DNA from: an uncultured Mailhella sp.
GTDB lineage: Bacteria > Desulfobacterota > Desulfovibrionia > Desulfovibrionales > Desulfovibrionaceae
Direction: 5' to 3'
Length of the DNA: 64,000 nt
Assembly: GCF_944324615.1 (NCBI RefSeq)
Contig: NZ_CALUWY010000005.1
Coordinates: forward strand, 34,014-98,013
The notes beneath the pieces are model-generated. The model was not told the DNA's origin. It saw nothing but the letters and a program-made list of their open reading frames with translations, and did no database searches. Positions 10,820-17,934 of the stretch are shown piece after piece; the stretch's first letter is position 1, and the number at the start of each line of letters is the position of its first letter. A program made the translations under genes and the position numbers.

Positions 10820-12154
10820 CTACGCGCCCTGCTTCTTCACCTCGGAAAAAGGCCTGAGCGTGGTCGATTCCGCCATGACCTTGCGCGCCGCGCCGTAAAG
10901 ACGATCCAGCGCCCGGTCGACGATCATGCGTTCCTGCATGGCGGTGATGACACCCGTTTCCCATATCGTCTTGCGCAGATCCTCATAGTTCTGCCCCGTG
11001 CCCTTGGTCATGGAGCGCACGGCCTCCTCGGCTTCCCTGCCGCTCACGCTGATGCCCTCCCGCTGGGCCAGCGCCAGAAGGAAGGTATGGCCCTTGGCCT
11101 TCTTGCGCGCGAATTCCATGGCCTCGTCGTGCATGTGTTCCAGCGTTTCGCGGATGGTCTGTTCATCGGCATGCTGCTTTTTGAGGTAATGTTCCGCATC
11201 ACGCAGGTGTTCGCGGTAAAAACGCTGTACCAGACTTTCCGGAAGGGGGAAATCCAGACGCGCAAGCTGCTCCTCCATGAGACGGTGCTTGCCTTCGCGC
11301 TGTATCTGGCGCATGTGTGCGGCAAAAGTCTGCTGCCACACTTCCTGCTTCAGATCGTCGAAGGTCTTGAAGCCCAGCTTCTGCGCCGTCTCATCGGTGA
11401 GCGGGGGCAGCACTTCGCGCTGTATGCGGCGAAGCACCACATCAAGCTGCACTTCACGGCCGCGAAGCGTGGGGTCGGGGTAATTGTCCGGGCAGATCAT
11501 CACGCCCTGCCCTCTTTCGCCCACGTTCAGCGCACGGACGATGGGATCCATTTCCGGCACCTTCGCCCCCGGACGCACGGGCAGAAGCTGAAGACGGAAA
11601 TTGTCCGCCGTCATGCCCGGCAGGGACCTGCCGTCCACGGTGCCGCGCACGTCCACGGTAAGAAGGTCATGATCCTGCGGCTTGCGGTCCGTCACATCCT
11701 CATACGCGGCCACGCGGCGCAGAGCCTGATCGAGCATGGCATTCAGCGCATCGTCGCCGGGCGCAGGATCGGGCACCACCACGGAAAGGGTTTCCAGATC
11801 GGGCAGGTCCACCTCGGGCAGCGTATCGAAGGTGGAGGAAAAGGCGAATTCCTTTCCTTCCTGCGCGGGCTCACCGTGATACTGCGAAGGACACAGAGGG
11901 CGGATTCCCTCCTTTTTGAGAATGTCCATCATGGTATCGTCGGCAAGAATTTCCGTGGCATCGGCGGCCACGCGGGAAGCGAAGCGGCTCTTTATGACAT
12001 TGACGGGAATTTTGCCCACGCGAAAACCGGGGAGATTCATGCCCTTGCCTATGGCCTTCGCCGCACGGTCAAAGGCCTTCTTCACTTCGTCGGCAGAGCA
12101 GGTCACCGCCAGGGAAACGGAAGTGGGGGATGTTTTCTCTATGCTGTATTCCAT
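10820..12154 (-). CDS. tig: Trigger factor, ribosome-associated chaperone
   Basis: A 444-residue trigger factor that binds the ribosome exit tunnel and nascent chains. The ribosome-binding signature GFRVGKIP lies near residues 44-51. The middle PPIase-like domain (about 150-245) and the helical C-terminal chaperone arms follow. Its RBS is GAGGAG. It lies 126 bp downstream of a second, clearly paralogous trigger-factor gene. It is slightly longer than the E. coli protein and is probably the main copy. Confidence 0.95.
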   Translation of the reverse strand: MEYSIEKTSPTSVSLAVTCSADEVKKAFDRAAKAIGKGMNLPGFRVGKIPVNVIKSRFASRVAADATEILADDTMMDILKKEGIRPLCPSQYHGEPAQEGKEFAFSSTFDTLPEVDLPDLETLSVVVPDPAPGDDALNAMLDQALRRVAAYEDVTDRKPQDHDLLTVDVRGTVDGRSLPGMTADNFRLQLLPVRPGAKVPEMDPIVRALNVGERGQGVMICPDNYPDPTLRGREVQLDVVLRRIQREVLPPLTDETAQKLGFKTFDDLKQEVWQQTFAAHMRQIQREGKHRLMEEQLARLDFPLPESLVQRFYREHLRDAEHYLKKQHADEQTIRETLEHMHDEAMEFARKKAKGHTFLLALAQREGISVSGREAEEAVRSMTKGTGQNYEDLRKTIWETGVITAMQERMIVDRALDRLYGAARKVMAESTTLRPFSEVKKQGA

Positions 12155-12280: not shown

Positions 12281-13561
12281 TCACGGCCTGCACACGCGCG
12301 AAAGAAGCGCCTCCAGCGCGCGTTCTTCCAGCATGGCCGCGCGCATCTCATACACCTCACCCGTGCGGGCAAGGCGGCGGGCAAAGGAGGCGGCATCCGT
12401 GTTCTGCGCGGCGGCACGGCCGGCAAGCACCTTCTGCAGTTCCGCCTCCGGCACGTCGATGCCTTCCCTGCGCGCCCAGCCGAGCAGAAGCGCACGTTTC
12501 ACGGCCTTCTTCCGACCCGTCTCTTCCGCTTCCTGTTTCATGAGGGCAAGAATTTCCTTCAGCCTGTCCGGCGAATCATACCGACTCTGCAGATACTGGC
12601 GGGAACGGCGCAAGGCCTCGCGGCGGCAGTGCTCCACAAGGCAGGCGGGAGCCTCGAAGGCTTCCCACGCTTCCAGACGTGATGCAAGATCCCGCTTAGC
12701 CTCCATGTGAAGGCGTGCGCGGCTCCGTTCCAGAGCCAGTTCATGCGCCCCGGCCTTCAGCGCCTCCACACTGCGGAAACCGAGACGCCGTGCCGTTTCC
12801 TCCGTCAGCGGAGGAAGAACTTCCCTTTCCACGGCGCGGAGCGTCACGGTAAGTTCAATATCTCTGCCGCGCAGGGAAGGATCGGGATAATTGTCCGGGC
12901 AGACCGTGGTGCCGGTGCCGGTTTCCCCCACGTTCAGACTGCGGACCACGGGATCCAGATCCGGGGCCTTTTCGCCCGGGCGGAGGGGCATGAGACGCAT
13001 GCGGCAGGGGCCGGTGTTCATGCCGGGCAGGATGCGGCCGTCGATGCGGCCCGTCACTTCCGCCTGCACGATGTCGCCATCCTGCGGGCGGCCCTCCTTC
13101 ACCGGAACTTTTCCGGCAATGCGGCTCAGCATGTCATGCAGGGCCGCGGCGTCCTCATCGGCATCCGCCTCAGGCGTCTTTTCTTCCAGCGAAAGGGCCG
13201 AAAAATCCGGCACGTCGCCCTCGACAAGCACGCCGAAGCTCACGCTGAAACGAAAATCCTGCCCGCGCATGGCGCCTTCCCCTTCCCAGGTGAAAGCGGT
13301 GACGGGAAGAAGCCCTTCCCCCGACAAGGCCTTTCTCACACCGCGCTCGACAAGAGCATCGGTGCTTTCTTCGGAAATCTGCCGCCCGAACTGCCTCTCC
13401 AGCACTTCCAGCGGAGCCTTGCCGGGCCTGAATCCCGCCATACGGAAAGAAGATGCAAAAGGCGCGGCAACCTTTTTCCACTCGGCAGTCACCTCCGCCG
13501 CAGAAAAGAAGCAGGAAAGGCGGCACTCTCCGTCCGCCCCTTTCTCCACATGGTATTCCAT
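12281..13561 (-). CDS. Second trigger factor paralogue
   Basis: A 426-residue homologue of the adjacent tig product along its whole length. The ribosome-binding loop is kept (GFRPGKAPLEVL, near residues 44-55). The PPIase-like region shares blocks such as CPDNYPDPSLRGR and REVLPPLTEETARRLG with the neighbour. The C-terminal arms are more diverged, with many Arg and Ala. It starts 27 bp after the GNAT gene stop, so GNAT, this gene and tig may be one transcript. Whether it is a working chaperone with a different clientele cannot be told here. Confidence 0.9.
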   Translation of the reverse strand: MEYHVEKGADGECRLSCFFSAAEVTAEWKKVAAPFASSFRMAGFRPGKAPLEVLERQFGRQISEESTDALVERGVRKALSGEGLLPVTAFTWEGEGAMRGQDFRFSVSFGVLVEGDVPDFSALSLEEKTPEADADEDAAALHDMLSRIAGKVPVKEGRPQDGDIVQAEVTGRIDGRILPGMNTGPCRMRLMPLRPGEKAPDLDPVVRSLNVGETGTGTTVCPDNYPDPSLRGRDIELTVTLRAVEREVLPPLTEETARRLGFRSVEALKAGAHELALERSRARLHMEAKRDLASRLEAWEAFEAPACLVEHCRREALRRSRQYLQSRYDSPDRLKEILALMKQEAEETGRKKAVKRALLLGWARREGIDVPEAELQKVLAGRAAAQNTDAASFARRLARTGEVYEMRAAMLEERALEALLSRVCRP

Positions 13562-14645: not shown

Positions 14646-14793
14646 ACGCTCCGCTCTCCCGCCTGAAGCCATGCCCTTTTTCTGCGCAGGGCGCCGGATG
14701 CCGCTACTGCGCAACAAGGCATGGACATGAAAAAGCAACCTGGACTCTTTCGCGCAGATGCTCTGCCGGAAGGGATATTCTGAGGAATGCAGC

Positions 14794-15984
14794 ATGAAGG
14801 ATTCCACCATTCTCACACACGCCGGGCGCGCGCCGCTGCGCGTCGGCGGCCCCGTCAACATGCCGGTGCACCGCGCCTCCACCATCGTTTCCCCCACGCT
14901 TGAGGAATTCGACGCCAACGAGGAAGGCGACGCCAAGTTCCGCAACGTCTGCTACGGCGCTCTGGGCACGGAAAATTCCTTTGCCCTGTGCGATGCCGTG
15001 AACAGGCTGGAACAGGGCGCAGGATCCATGGTGACAAGCTCCGGCCTTGCCGCGTGCACGCAGTCGCTCCTTGCCTTTGTGGGCGCGGGCGACCATGTGC
15101 TCATGCCCGACAGCGTCTACGGCCCGCAGCGCATGTTCTGCGAAAGCATTCTGCGCCGCTTCGGGGTGGAGACCACCTATTACGATCCCGCCATAGGCGA
15201 AGGCATAGACGTGCTCATCAAGGCGAACACCCGCGTCGTGTACACGGAGGCGCCGGGTTCGCTCACCTTTGAAATGCAGGACATCCCGGCCATAGTGCGG
15301 GCCGCCCATGCCCACGGCGCCGTGGTCATCATGGACAATACCTGGGCCGGTCCCCTCTACTTCAAGCCCCTCCTTGCAGGGGTGGACATCTGCGTGGAGG
15401 CGGCCACAAAGTTCATTGCCGGGCACTCCGACCTCGTCATGGGCATCATCACGGCGCGGACCCGGGAACTGTACCTCCGCATGCGCGCCTTCTGCGTACA
15501 GATGGGGGAAATCGCCTCTCCCGACGACTGCTACCTTGCCCTGCGCGGCCTGCGCACCATGAAGGTGCGCATGGAAAAGCAGTTCTCCCAGGCTCTGGAA
15601 CTGGCCCGCTGGCTGGAAACCCGGCCGGAAGTGCTGCAGGTGCTCTACCCTCCCCTTGAAAGTCACCCCGGGCACGCGCTCTGGGCGCGCGACTTCACAG
15701 GCGGCGGATCGCTCTTTTCCATCGTTCTGCCGAAGATGGAGAAAAAGGCCGTGGCCGCCATGCTCAACGGCTACAGGCTGTTCAGCATAGGCGCAAGCTG
15801 GGGCGGCTTCGACAGCCTTGTGGAACACTGTCATCCCGAACGCACGGCGCTGAACCGCAAGGCACCGGTGTGGAACGAAGACAACTGCACCCTCGTGCGC
15901 TACGCCATAGGGCTGGAAGACGTGGACGACCTCAAAGCCGACCTTGAGGAAGGATTCGCCCGCCTGCGCGCCGCCCTTTCCTGA
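14794..15984 (+). CDS. metC: Cystathionine beta-lyase / Cys-Met metabolism PLP enzyme
   Basis: A 396-residue PLP enzyme of the gamma family that would split cystathionine into homocysteine, pyruvate and ammonia. Seen are the tyrosine-bearing YGALGTEN near residue 50, SGLAACTQSLLAF, and DNTWAGP with the PLP-contacting Asp. The PLP lysine is in ATKFIAGHSD near residue 210. GASWGGFDSL near 335 is typical of MetC rather than MetB. The start at 14794 lies behind GAGGAA. It lies 133 bp before the HesB-like selenoprotein gene but has a separate promoter between. Confidence 0.88.
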   Translation: MKDSTILTHAGRAPLRVGGPVNMPVHRASTIVSPTLEEFDANEEGDAKFRNVCYGALGTENSFALCDAVNRLEQGAGSMVTSSGLAACTQSLLAFVGAGDHVLMPDSVYGPQRMFCESILRRFGVETTYYDPAIGEGIDVLIKANTRVVYTEAPGSLTFEMQDIPAIVRAAHAHGAVVIMDNTWAGPLYFKPLLAGVDICVEAATKFIAGHSDLVMGIITARTRELYLRMRAFCVQMGEIASPDDCYLALRGLRTMKVRMEKQFSQALELARWLETRPEVLQVLYPPLESHPGHALWARDFTGGGSLFSIVLPKMEKKAVAAMLNGYRLFSIGASWGGFDSLVEHCHPERTALNRKAPVWNEDNCTLVRYAIGLEDVDDLKADLEEGFARLRAALS

Positions 15985-16058
15985 GCCGGTATGCCGGTCA
16001 GGCTTTGTGCAAAGCGGAAGGCTCCGGCACAAAAAAGGAGAAATGCCCCTTCCGTCCA

Positions 16059-16087
16059 TTGACAAAGTCAAGAACGGTTCCTATTTT
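16059..16087 (+). promoter_or_regulatory. Promoter of the HesB-like selenoprotein pair
   Basis: TTGACA (16059-16064) and TATTTT (16082-16087) have a 17-base spacer, 31 bp upstream of the ATG. It separates the pair from metC. Confidence 0.6.
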
Positions 16088-16117
16088 TACCCAAAACAAT
16101 TTCTTCTGGAGATACGC

Positions 16118-16435
16118 ATGATTCATCTTTCCGATGCTGCCCGGCAGGAGCTGGAGGCTTTCTTCGCCGACAAGCCCAAGGCCGGCATCCGCGTCTACCT
16201 GGCCCCCGGCGGCTGAAGCGGCCCCCGTCTCGCACTGGCTCTGGATGAGCCTACCGACAACGACAAGGCCTTTGAAGTCAACGGTTTCACCTTCTGTCTG
16301 GAATCCTCGCTGCTGGAACGCATCGGCGGCGTAAGAATCGACGTGAGCTACATGGGCTTCATCGTCGATCCCGAAATCCCGCTTCAGGGCGGAAGCAGCT
16401 GCGGAACCTGCGGAAGCAGCTGCGGCAGCCACTGA
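16118..16435 (+). CDS. HesB/IscA-like selenoprotein (Sec33 encoded by in-frame TGA)
   Basis: A 105-residue protein if the TGA at 16214-16216 is read as selenocysteine. Before it lies RVYLAPGG; after it the frame stays open as SGPRLALALDEP to a TGA at 16433, ending in the Cys-rich tail CGTCGSSCGSH. HesB/IscA proteins bind iron or Fe-S clusters through one internal and two C-terminal cysteines, and Sec33 sits at the internal site. The next gene encodes a paralogue with Cys at exactly this position. A hairpin at 16237-16251 fits a SECIS element. TGGAG precedes the ATG by 6 bases. Seleno members of this family are known; the cluster-related function is inferred. Confidence 0.9.
16237..16251 (+). 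promoter_or_regulatory. Putative bacterial SECIS hairpin
   Basis: GGCTC and GAGCC form a 5-bp stem around loop TGGAT. The loop begins 26 bases after the UGA and has G at its second position, as bacterial SECIS rules require (a G in the first two loop bases, loop about 16-37 bases from UGA). The paralogous gene has lost this pairing at the same place. Confidence 0.65.
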
Positions 16436-16503
16436 TACCGTAGTCTTCCAGGGTTTTCTGGGGAGACATCCCCACAGGACCTTCTTACTTAATGGAGCAC
16501 ACT

Positions 16504-16839
16504 GTGTTTACTCTCACCGAAAGCGCCCGCACTGAACTTGACGCCTTTTTCGCCGACAAGGAAAAATCCGCCATCCGTCTGTATCTCGCCCCCGGCGGGT
16601 GCAGCGGCCCCCGCATCGGTCTGGCTCTTGACGATCCCAACGAACGGGATTTCGTCACCGAACAGGATGGCTACACCTTCTGCGCGACCAAGGATCTGTG
16701 GGCTACCATAGGCGGAGCCACGGTCGATGCCAGCCCCATGGGCTTCCTCGTCACCCCTGAAATTCCCCTGCCCAGCATGGGCGGCTGCGGCTGCTCCAGC
16801 TGCGGCACCGGCACCTGTGGCGGCGGCTGCCACCACTGA
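16504..16839 (+). CDS. HesB/IscA-like protein, cysteine form
   Basis: A 111-residue paralogue of the preceding selenoprotein. From the GTG at 16504 the two align without gaps: ADK at residues 17-19, YLAPGG at 27-32, then Cys33 where the neighbour has Sec. This start is preferred over ATG at 16492 because TGGAG lies 6 bases before the GTG, the same layout as in the seleno gene. The tail CGCSSCGTGTCGGGC is even richer in cysteine. Likely role: iron or Fe-S cluster binding or transfer, alone or as a pair with the Sec form. Confidence 0.88.
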   Translation: MFTLTESARTELDAFFADKEKSAIRLYLAPGGCSGPRIGLALDDPNERDFVTEQDGYTFCATKDLWATIGGATVDASPMGFLVTPEIPLPSMGGCGCSSCGTGTCGGGCHH

Positions 16840-16920
16840 TGCCTTCCCCGGCGGAGCCGTTTTTCCAACGGTTCCGCAAGCGGCCATGCCGCACCTGCGG
16901 GGGAAGATTCCCGCATGACA

Positions 16921-16953
16921 GGCCGCCGTGCGCAAGCATGGCGGCCTTTTCAT
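16921..16953 (+). terminator. Terminator after the HesB-like pair
   Basis: GGCCGCCGTG and CATGGCGGCC form a 10-bp stem with one wobble pair, followed by TTTT. Confidence 0.75.
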
Positions 16954-17085: not shown

Positions 17086-17934
17086 ATGTACGAATTCTGG
17101 AAAATCACCCCCGGCGGAAATCCGACCATTCTTCTGAGAGCCGAGGATTTCCCGCGGAATATGCGCGCTCAGGCGGCGGGCGCGGTCATGAGCGACCAGC
17201 ACATCGGTGCGGAACAGGTGGGCTATGTGCGCCTTTCGGGCAGGCCCCGGCTGGACATGATGGGCGGAGAATTCTGCCTCAACGCCACGCGCTCCTTTGC
17301 CGTGCTTCTTGCTCAGGAAGGGCTTCTTGCGGGAAACGGCCATGAATACTCAGGCAGCGTGGAAGTTTCCGGAGTGCCCGGCGACGTGGCCGTGCACGTG
17401 CGCCTTGAACCGGATCAGCTGCCCTTTGCCGAAGCCTGCCTGCACTTTGCCTCCCTGCCCGTGCCGGAAACGCTCCCGGAACAGGGCAGGCTCCTGCGCA
17501 TTCCCGGCATCATTCACATTGTGCAGGAAGGTTCCGTCCCTTCTCAGGACAAACTGCCCCTGTTCTGCGAAAGACAGCGCAAAACATGCGGTGTCGCCGC
17601 AGAGGAAGCCGTGGGGCATCTGTGGCTCTCGGGCCTGAAAAAGGACGGTGACAACGCCGAGGCGGAGCTTTATCCCGTGGTATGGGTGCGCGACACCGCC
17701 ACCCTCTGCCGCGAAAGCGCCTGCGGTTCGGGCACGCTGGCCTGTGCTCTGGCGCTGCACCACAGCCTTCACGTCACGCGCTGTGCCATACGCCAGCCCA
17801 GCGGGTTCCAGCTGAGCGTGCGCATGGAACACAGACCCGAAGGCTGGGATGTCTGGGTGGGCGGCCCCGTACGCATGACCGCGCACGGCCGCACCGACCT
17901 CACCGGCCTTCTGCCCTCCGGTCACACTTTGTAA
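17086..17934 (+). CDS. DapF-superfamily amino acid epimerase/racemase
   Basis: A 282-residue protein with the two-domain diaminopimelate epimerase fold. The two catalytic cysteines are visible: one in MGGEFCLNATRS near residue 66 and one in ESACGSGTLACAL near 213. The N-terminus (FWKITPGGNPT) departs from canonical DapF, which has GNDF there. This is more like the DapF-related racemases acting on other amino acids, such as histidine racemase. So dapF itself is possible but less likely; the substrate is open. It starts after AAGGAA and stands alone. Confidence 0.8.
   Translation: MYEFWKITPGGNPTILLRAEDFPRNMRAQAAGAVMSDQHIGAEQVGYVRLSGRPRLDMMGGEFCLNATRSFAVLLAQEGLLAGNGHEYSGSVEVSGVPGDVAVHVRLEPDQLPFAEACLHFASLPVPETLPEQGRLLRIPGIIHIVQEGSVPSQDKLPLFCERQRKTCGVAAEEAVGHLWLSGLKKDGDNAEAELYPVVWVRDTATLCRESACGSGTLACALALHHSLHVTRCAIRQPSGFQLSVRMEHRPEGWDVWVGGPVRMTAHGRTDLTGLLPSGHTL

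Follow-up and report, generated by a model that had tools for sequence, protein, structure and literature searches.

Tandem genes of the IscA/HesB family for a predicted selenoprotein and its cysteine counterpart in a Mailhella genome, and their likely repeated origin in related bacteria

Why some proteins keep selenocysteine (Sec) when cysteine (Cys) seems enough is a long-standing question, and it is raised in compact form by a locus of an uncultured Mailhella sp. (Desulfovibrionaceae), where a gene with an in-frame TGA is followed by a similar gene carrying a Cys codon at the aligned position. The locus lies within a stretch of 64,000 nucleotides, referred to here as the window, taken from a genome assembly of 126 contigs that is 98.5% complete. 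In our best explanation, to which we give a probability of roughly 0.6, the genes encode a tandem pair of IscA/HesB proteins resembling A-type carriers, one with a predicted Sec33 and the other with Cys33, which would carry Fe-S clusters in a selenium-dependent and a selenium-independent way, respectively; the carrier function and the reason why both copies are kept are what we infer.

Both genes lie on the plus strand. The Sec gene (16118..16435) opens with ATG at 16118 and runs through 32 codons to the TGA at 16214..16216, then through 72 further sense codons to a final TGA at 16433-16435, giving a protein of 105 residues plus stop in which residue 33 is the predicted Sec. After 68 bases follows the Cys gene (16504..16839; 111 residues, GTG start and TGA stop), whose TGC codon at 16600..16602 encodes the Cys33 aligned with Sec33. 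The two proteins align without gaps over residues 1-89, with 52/89 positions identical (58%), and their Cys-rich tails differ. Each gene is preceded by a TGGAG ribosome-binding site, at 16107..16111 for the Sec gene (GGAG or GGGAG at the same place in relatives) and at 16493..16497 for the Cys gene (GGAG in 16/16 relatives). An earlier sequence-only reading of this DNA had proposed the long frame across the TGA, the gap-free alignment with Cys at the Sec position, and the GTG at 16504 as a conditional start, and all three hold; in particular, a GTG or ATG stands at the position of 16504 behind GGAG in 16/16 same-genus relatives, while the in-frame ATG at 16492 of the window overlaps the ribosome-binding site of the Cys gene and is not common in frame to the relatives (G127 and G131 have an ATG at that place, out of frame). 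Its expectation that an ordinary gene caller would report a 32-codon stub was mistaken, as the mechanical list of open reading frames gives instead a 90-codon frame with a TTG start (15944-16216) that ends at the TGA.

A sigma-70-type promoter-like site, TTGACA-17-TATTTT, with 10/12 consensus matches, is located 5' of the pair at 16059..16087 on the plus strand, and the sequence TTGACAAA is aligned and identical in 17/17 of the same-genus upstream regions aligned, including that of G042, which has the Cys gene only. We also asked whether a palindrome over the -35 box, TTGACaaaGTCAA, might be an operator, but rejected this because only its TTGACAAA half is conserved. No promoter- or terminator-like call falls within the 68 bases between the genes; a promoter-like call is also found inside the Cys gene. 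Downstream of the pair, a terminator-like hairpin of 12 pairs followed by a T-rich tail occupies 16920..16947 on the plus strand, a statistically weak call given two such sites against a mean of 1.5 in shuffled sequences, the second being a weak one of 5 pairs inside the Sec gene (16141-16154). An Rfam search around the genes returned four matches only, all under the gathering score.

The neighbourhood comparison, which relied on crude ORF calling, gave no functional partner for the pair, and the recurrent neighbours, read by eye as PyrR-like, ArgB and HslU, look positional. In the window, a cystathionine beta-lyase gene (14758-15984; 441 bits, TIGR01324) lies directly 5' of the pair, and the gene on its 3' side (17086-17931) is histidine-racemase-like, at 86.8 bits far below the cut-off of 400 of NF052224 and with no Pfam match at 0.001. 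Two tandem trigger-factor-like genes on the minus strand (10820-12154 and 12281-13561), each with Trigger_N and Trigger_C over cut-off, constitute a second duplicated pair nearby.

Is the TGA read as Sec? The sequence-only reading had staked its claim on the presence of the Sec machinery, and SelA, SelB, SelD and tRNA-Sec are all found in the genome of the window, each over its curated cut-off. Further, within the matched part of selD, codon 9 is an in-frame TGA (U9, in a UxxK motif; L075 1501-2442), which makes selD itself a predicted selenoprotein gene. With the machinery present and a TGA inside selD, it is very likely that UGA is read as Sec. The same reading had suggested folding the bases after the TGA in search of a SECIS element, and a hairpin with a 5-bp stem, GGCTC-TGGAT-GAGCC, was located at 16237..16251 on the plus strand, 20 nt 3' of the UGA. 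In the fetched loci of 134 genomes or records, which contain 224 distinct family genes, this stem is complete in 120/120 Sec genes vs 3/96 Cys genes (the set includes 8 genes with neither residue), while the amino acids encoded at the hairpin are nearly the same in Sec and Cys genes. Compensating stem variants occur in Sec genes (GGTTC/GAACC, GGCCC/GGGCC, AGCTC/GAGCT and TGCTC/GAGCA), and the GGCCC/GGGCC stem costs a Glu to Gly change in G011. Of the stem-bearing Cys genes, that of G010 has the exact motif, likely as a remnant, and those of G016 and G115 have a different loop (TCGAC for TGGAY). The hairpin of the window taken alone has no unusual stability (z -0.60), and whole-stretch folding energy 3' of the codon gives a modest separation of Sec and Cys genes, with the Sec gene lower in 14/22 genera; the signal that distinguishes them is thus the position-specific stem rather than the folding energy of the whole stretch, and it is conservation, not single-sequence stability, that supports a SECIS-type hairpin here.

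Homologues in relatives, the other check proposed beforehand, keep both the TGA and the frame downstream of it. Within the genus, 15/15 other Sec genes compared have TGA at codon 33, and in each comparison pN is lower than pS on either side of it. Ten named loci contain a relative of the Sec protein; nine of them, from Mailhella or Desulfovibrionaceae, are 85-94% identical, and that of Desulfonauticus 52%.

Regarding the nature of the proteins, the sequence-only reading had correctly pointed to HesB-like selenoproteins as a family; both proteins score over the cut-off (85 bits) of NF038090, IscA_HesB_Se, with 104.8 bits for the Sec and 89.3 bits for the Cys protein. PF01521 places them on either side of its cut-off of 26.3 (29.1 and 22.5 bits, respectively). 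The TIGR01911 model (HesB_rel_seleno) is reached by neither, at 41 and 26 bits vs 66.35, and the UxGP motif is present in the Sec protein as U33-S-G-P. Scores are likewise below the cut-offs of TIGR00049 (39.3 and 34.7 bits vs 58.8) and of the IscA model (29.6 and 22.1 bits vs 150.6), and both proteins fall far under the curated cut-offs of the IscA, SufA and ErpA models.

The AF2 model of the Sec protein, with Sec drawn as Cys, is confident (mean pLDDT 85) except for the Cys-rich tail, which is disordered (residues 93-105, pLDDT <50). Its fold is IscA-like: the best Foldseek match in the PDB is 1x0g, an IscA with a [2Fe-2S] cluster (E 4.9e-07, TM 0.60), further matches are other IscA and SufA structures (1r94, 1s98, 2d2a), and TM values range over about 0.53-0.75 among the best nine matches. 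The AF2 model of the Cys protein has strands and helices in the same order. In E. coli IscA, the residue aligned with position 33 is the mid-chain Cys, and both window proteins have the expected ligand set of one mid-chain and two C-terminal Cys, namely Sec/Cys33 and at least three Cys in the tail; C33, C95, C98 and C102 are each present at no less than 90% in a 73-row alignment in which Sec is written as Cys. Two tails were unusual. In the otherwise conserved Sec gene of G123 (L061), two tail Cys are replaced by Trp (RSWGSWGSSC), and in the Sec copy of G016 (L122, from 5008) the Cys-rich tail, as read by eye, runs past a further TGA (SC-TGA-NCPSTC), which may be a stop or a second Sec.

TIGR00049 was over cut-off in 0/27 genomes searched, whereas 8/14 control genomes pass; all 49 weaker matches in the 27 genomes sit on IscA_HesB_Se family genes, and in the genome of the window on exactly the Sec and the Cys gene. 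For PF01521, 12/13 hits of the genome search were on family genes, the remaining one being in G048; this search missed the Sec gene of the window itself, so genome searches are not fully sensitive and the absence of canonical carriers is suggestive. Judged from these searches, the pair likely represents the only A-type carriers in the genomes examined. From the IscA-like fold, the alignment of residue 33 and the lack of any TIGR00049 match over cut-off, we infer that A-type carrier function is provided by the pair. No family match was obtained in some near-complete genomes (G101, 91% complete; G125, 93%), and the family is therefore not universally essential.

How widespread is the pairing? 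In the same genus, a family match was obtained in 17/19 genomes searched, and Sec then Cys genes are adjacent in 16/17, in agreement with the proposal of a duplication with one Sec and one Cys copy; the exception, G042, has a single Cys gene. Beyond the genus, a subset of loci was chosen as family matches regardless of residue, and pairs were counted as adjacent when on the same strand and at most 700 bases apart. Among 76 such pairs, 67 consist of one Sec and one Cys gene (53 in the order Sec-Cys, 14 Cys-Sec) and none of two Sec genes; the others are four Cys-neither pairs (third copies, g26), three Sec-neither (g40), one neither-Sec (G112) and one Cys-Cys (a third copy, G091). The 67 Sec/Cys pairs come from 67 genomes, of 21 genera of the taxonomic family of the window and of families f12, f13 and f30. 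In a sample of the phylum, 172/297 genomes gave a match, 13 of the matching ones belonging to the taxonomic family of the window, and most of the matches listed outside it carry TGA. Copies whose key position is occupied by a residue other than Sec or Cys (L094, L089, L099 and L092 in g26; L151, L153 and L154 in g40; L100 in G112) adjoin a pair or a Sec gene and represent a third fate of the duplicate; in g40 and G112 such a copy stands beside a Sec gene, so Cys is not the sole outcome. A candidate double-Sec protein in G331, with two TGA codons, was rejected, since it is explained more simply by the normal stop.

The origin of the pairs was addressed with trees of only about 110 columns. In a careful one, of 63 genes and with column 33 left out, Sec genes group with Cys genes of the same genus at bootstrap values of 98-100 in g11, g16, g17, g22, g24, g25, g27, g33, g41 and g42 (non-adjacent copies in the case of g16 and g17), and the AU test rejects a single Sec clade, with a log-likelihood difference of 373.5. 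On an 88-gene tree, parsimony needs 27 changes, 19 of them forced by well-supported branches, a number not below that obtained after shuffling the labels (mean 28, and as low in 205/500). With a Sec root, all 27 are explicable as Sec to Cys, with none back and at no extra cost. For the genus of the window, the grouping of Sec with Cys is moderate (84/93, 88-gene tree), and a larger quick tree puts the Cys genes of this genus elsewhere. The Sec tip is nearer to the common ancestor of the pair than the Cys tip in 13/15 small pair clades, and in 25/31 genomes overall; fast Cys branches can mislead trees, and a tree shaped by gene conversion would look no different in topology from one shaped by repeated duplication.

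A single early duplication, basal to the family, after which gene conversion drew the copies within each genus together but left codon 33 untouched, is a history that we regard as possible, if on the unlikely side. It would accommodate the tandem in 21 genera of the taxonomic family among the loci fetched, as well as the fact that within a genus mainly Sec groups with Sec and Cys with Cys. However, gene order is Cys-Sec in g10, g11 and g42, of both kinds in g22 and Sec-Cys in most others, and these differences argue for separate duplications in g10, g11, g42 and g22, gene conversion being possible elsewhere; genera whose fetched loci contain one Sec copy only (e.g. g8, g18, g32, g38) are interspersed with paired ones, and what is left of the hairpin in the Cys genes of G010 and G016 points to a recent origin from Sec genes. 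The trees thus indicate that the pairs are not one old duplication kept cleanly, and they make it likely that the matched pairs arose many separate times in related bacteria.

The distribution of TGA copies follows that of SelA in the taxonomic family. SelA was over cut-off in 99/119 genomes, and 90 of these 99 have a TGA copy, a count that includes G068, whose copy is 0.5 bits below the family cut-off, and G040 and G114, detected with a purpose-built HMM only. The nine others comprise G001 and G026 (weak TGA hits only), G042, G063 and G111 (Cys only), and G003, G018, G081 and G101 (no match). In G095, SelA was found only as a fragment below cut-off, and a Cys copy is present. Of 19 genomes with no SelA match, 8 are at least 90% complete and 11 less so. 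None of the 8 has a TGA copy over cut-off (G107 has one weak TGA hit, 24.5 bits), and among the 11, four do (G012, G022, G053, G113) and G027 has a weak one, for which missing contigs are a simple explanation.

This distribution bears on whether the Cys gene is a mere backup for selenium shortage, taking over an identical task whenever Sec is unavailable, in the manner of the Sec/Cys isoenzymes of Methanococcus. A non-TGA match is present in all 8 SelA-negative genomes that are near-complete (weak in G006, 56.9 bits), in G042 the same promoter stands before a lone Cys gene, and Methanococcus maripaludis, according to the portion consulted of PMC11097638, uses Cys enzymes in selenium depletion. 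Against this, both genes of the pair lie behind a single promoter-like site, so that no switch is visible, and the faster evolution of the Cys copies together with their different tails points to divergence rather than a spare; we find a pure backup role improbable.

For the pairing itself, the sequence-only reading had offered two redox or metal-affinity states or a heterodimer as possibilities. Were the heterodimer obligate, a single cluster might be held jointly by one Sec and one Cys. In A-type carriers, clusters sit between subunits; the two genes lie in close tandem, and pairing is mostly one-plus-one (67/76 adjacent pairs). Nevertheless, many genomes among the phylum matches listed have a single TGA match and several SelA-negative genomes a single Cys copy, so each can exist alone, and an obligate complex is quite doubtful. 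Finally, ordinary reading would end the first gene at TGA 16214 and make it a pseudogene truncated by a stop; this is scarcely credible, since both Sec codon and hairpin are retained across 120 family genes, purifying selection acts 3' of the codon in 15/15 comparisons and the genome has the full Sec machinery.

We therefore return to a selenium-dependent and a selenium-independent carrier encoded in tandem. On this explanation, the two genes would be co-transcribed from near 16087, and SelB, together with the hairpin, would allow the UGA to be read as Sec; the cluster ligands would be residue 33 and the Cys-rich tail, on the model of IscA. When Sec decoding is limiting, carrier function would be maintained by the Cys copy, which may have diverged towards targets of its own. 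From the trees, the Sec gene would be the ancestral one; in many lineages a second copy, newly formed or renewed through gene conversion, would have lost Sec for Cys together with the hairpin and then evolved faster. A bolder version, which we offer tentatively and consider less probable than its opposite, is that the canonical A-type carriers of these relatives of sulfate reducers were replaced by a two-ligand Sec and Cys system, the pair arising convergently well over ten times, mostly in tandem and one-way from Sec to Cys, because each ligand has a task of its own in Fe-S delivery.

The selenoprotein family is already known. HesB-like selenoproteins are listed in D. vulgaris and D. desulfuricans, and two Sec-to-Cys events with no Cys-to-Sec event are given for HesB-like proteins, in the portion consulted of Zhang 2006 (PMC1794560); the part consulted of a 2026 review (PMC13188914) lists the UxGP motif for the HesB_rel_seleno family. 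The window pair resembles the HesB-like and IscA_HesB_Se proteins (NF038090, TIGR01911) in family, UxGP motif and Sec at the aligned Cys, and differs from the account in those pages of PMC1794560 in the adjacent Sec and Cys genes, here in 21 genera plus f12, f13 and f30, and in the 27 Sec-to-Cys changes by parsimony (88-gene tree). With IscA, SufA and ErpA it shares the fold, the position of the first ligand and a Cys-containing C-terminus, and differs in the Sec of one copy, a longer Gly/Ser/Cys tail and scores far below the curated cut-offs. A Sec/Cys tandem of the HesB family receives no mention in the portions consulted of PMC1794560, PMC9312934, PMC2682760, PMC12013277 and PMC7144353, nor in the titles and abstract beginnings found among open-licence PMC papers. 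Hence, the recurrent bacterial Sec/Cys tandem appears to be new, being unreported in the open-licence PMC literature searched.

Similar arrangements are known elsewhere. In metazoan SPS1/SPS2, as described in part of PMC4561486, a Sec gene was repeatedly and independently duplicated with one copy losing Sec, as proposed here; these are animal genes, however, in which SPS1 carries residues other than Sec or Cys, and the Sec copy is the faster one after duplication, whereas in our pairs it is the Cys copy. Methanococcus maripaludis also has Sec and Cys forms of a protein in one organism; in the portion consulted of PMC11097638 they are selenium-regulated alternative enzymes, mostly of methanogenesis, whereas the genes studied here form one apparent transcription unit.

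Taken together, 67 genomes of the set examined offer natural matched pairs, of the same fold, adjacent, and with Se or S at the key site, often as apparently separate events. Such pairs constitute natural experiments on why cells use selenium, a question that may be addressed in culturable relatives of the organism of the window. They also provide a clean comparative set for bacterial SECIS elements, because near-identical Sec and Cys paralogues differ in synonymous codons exactly at the hairpin. If the pair is truly the only A-type carrier set of these bacteria, their selenium supply would be tied to Fe-S delivery.
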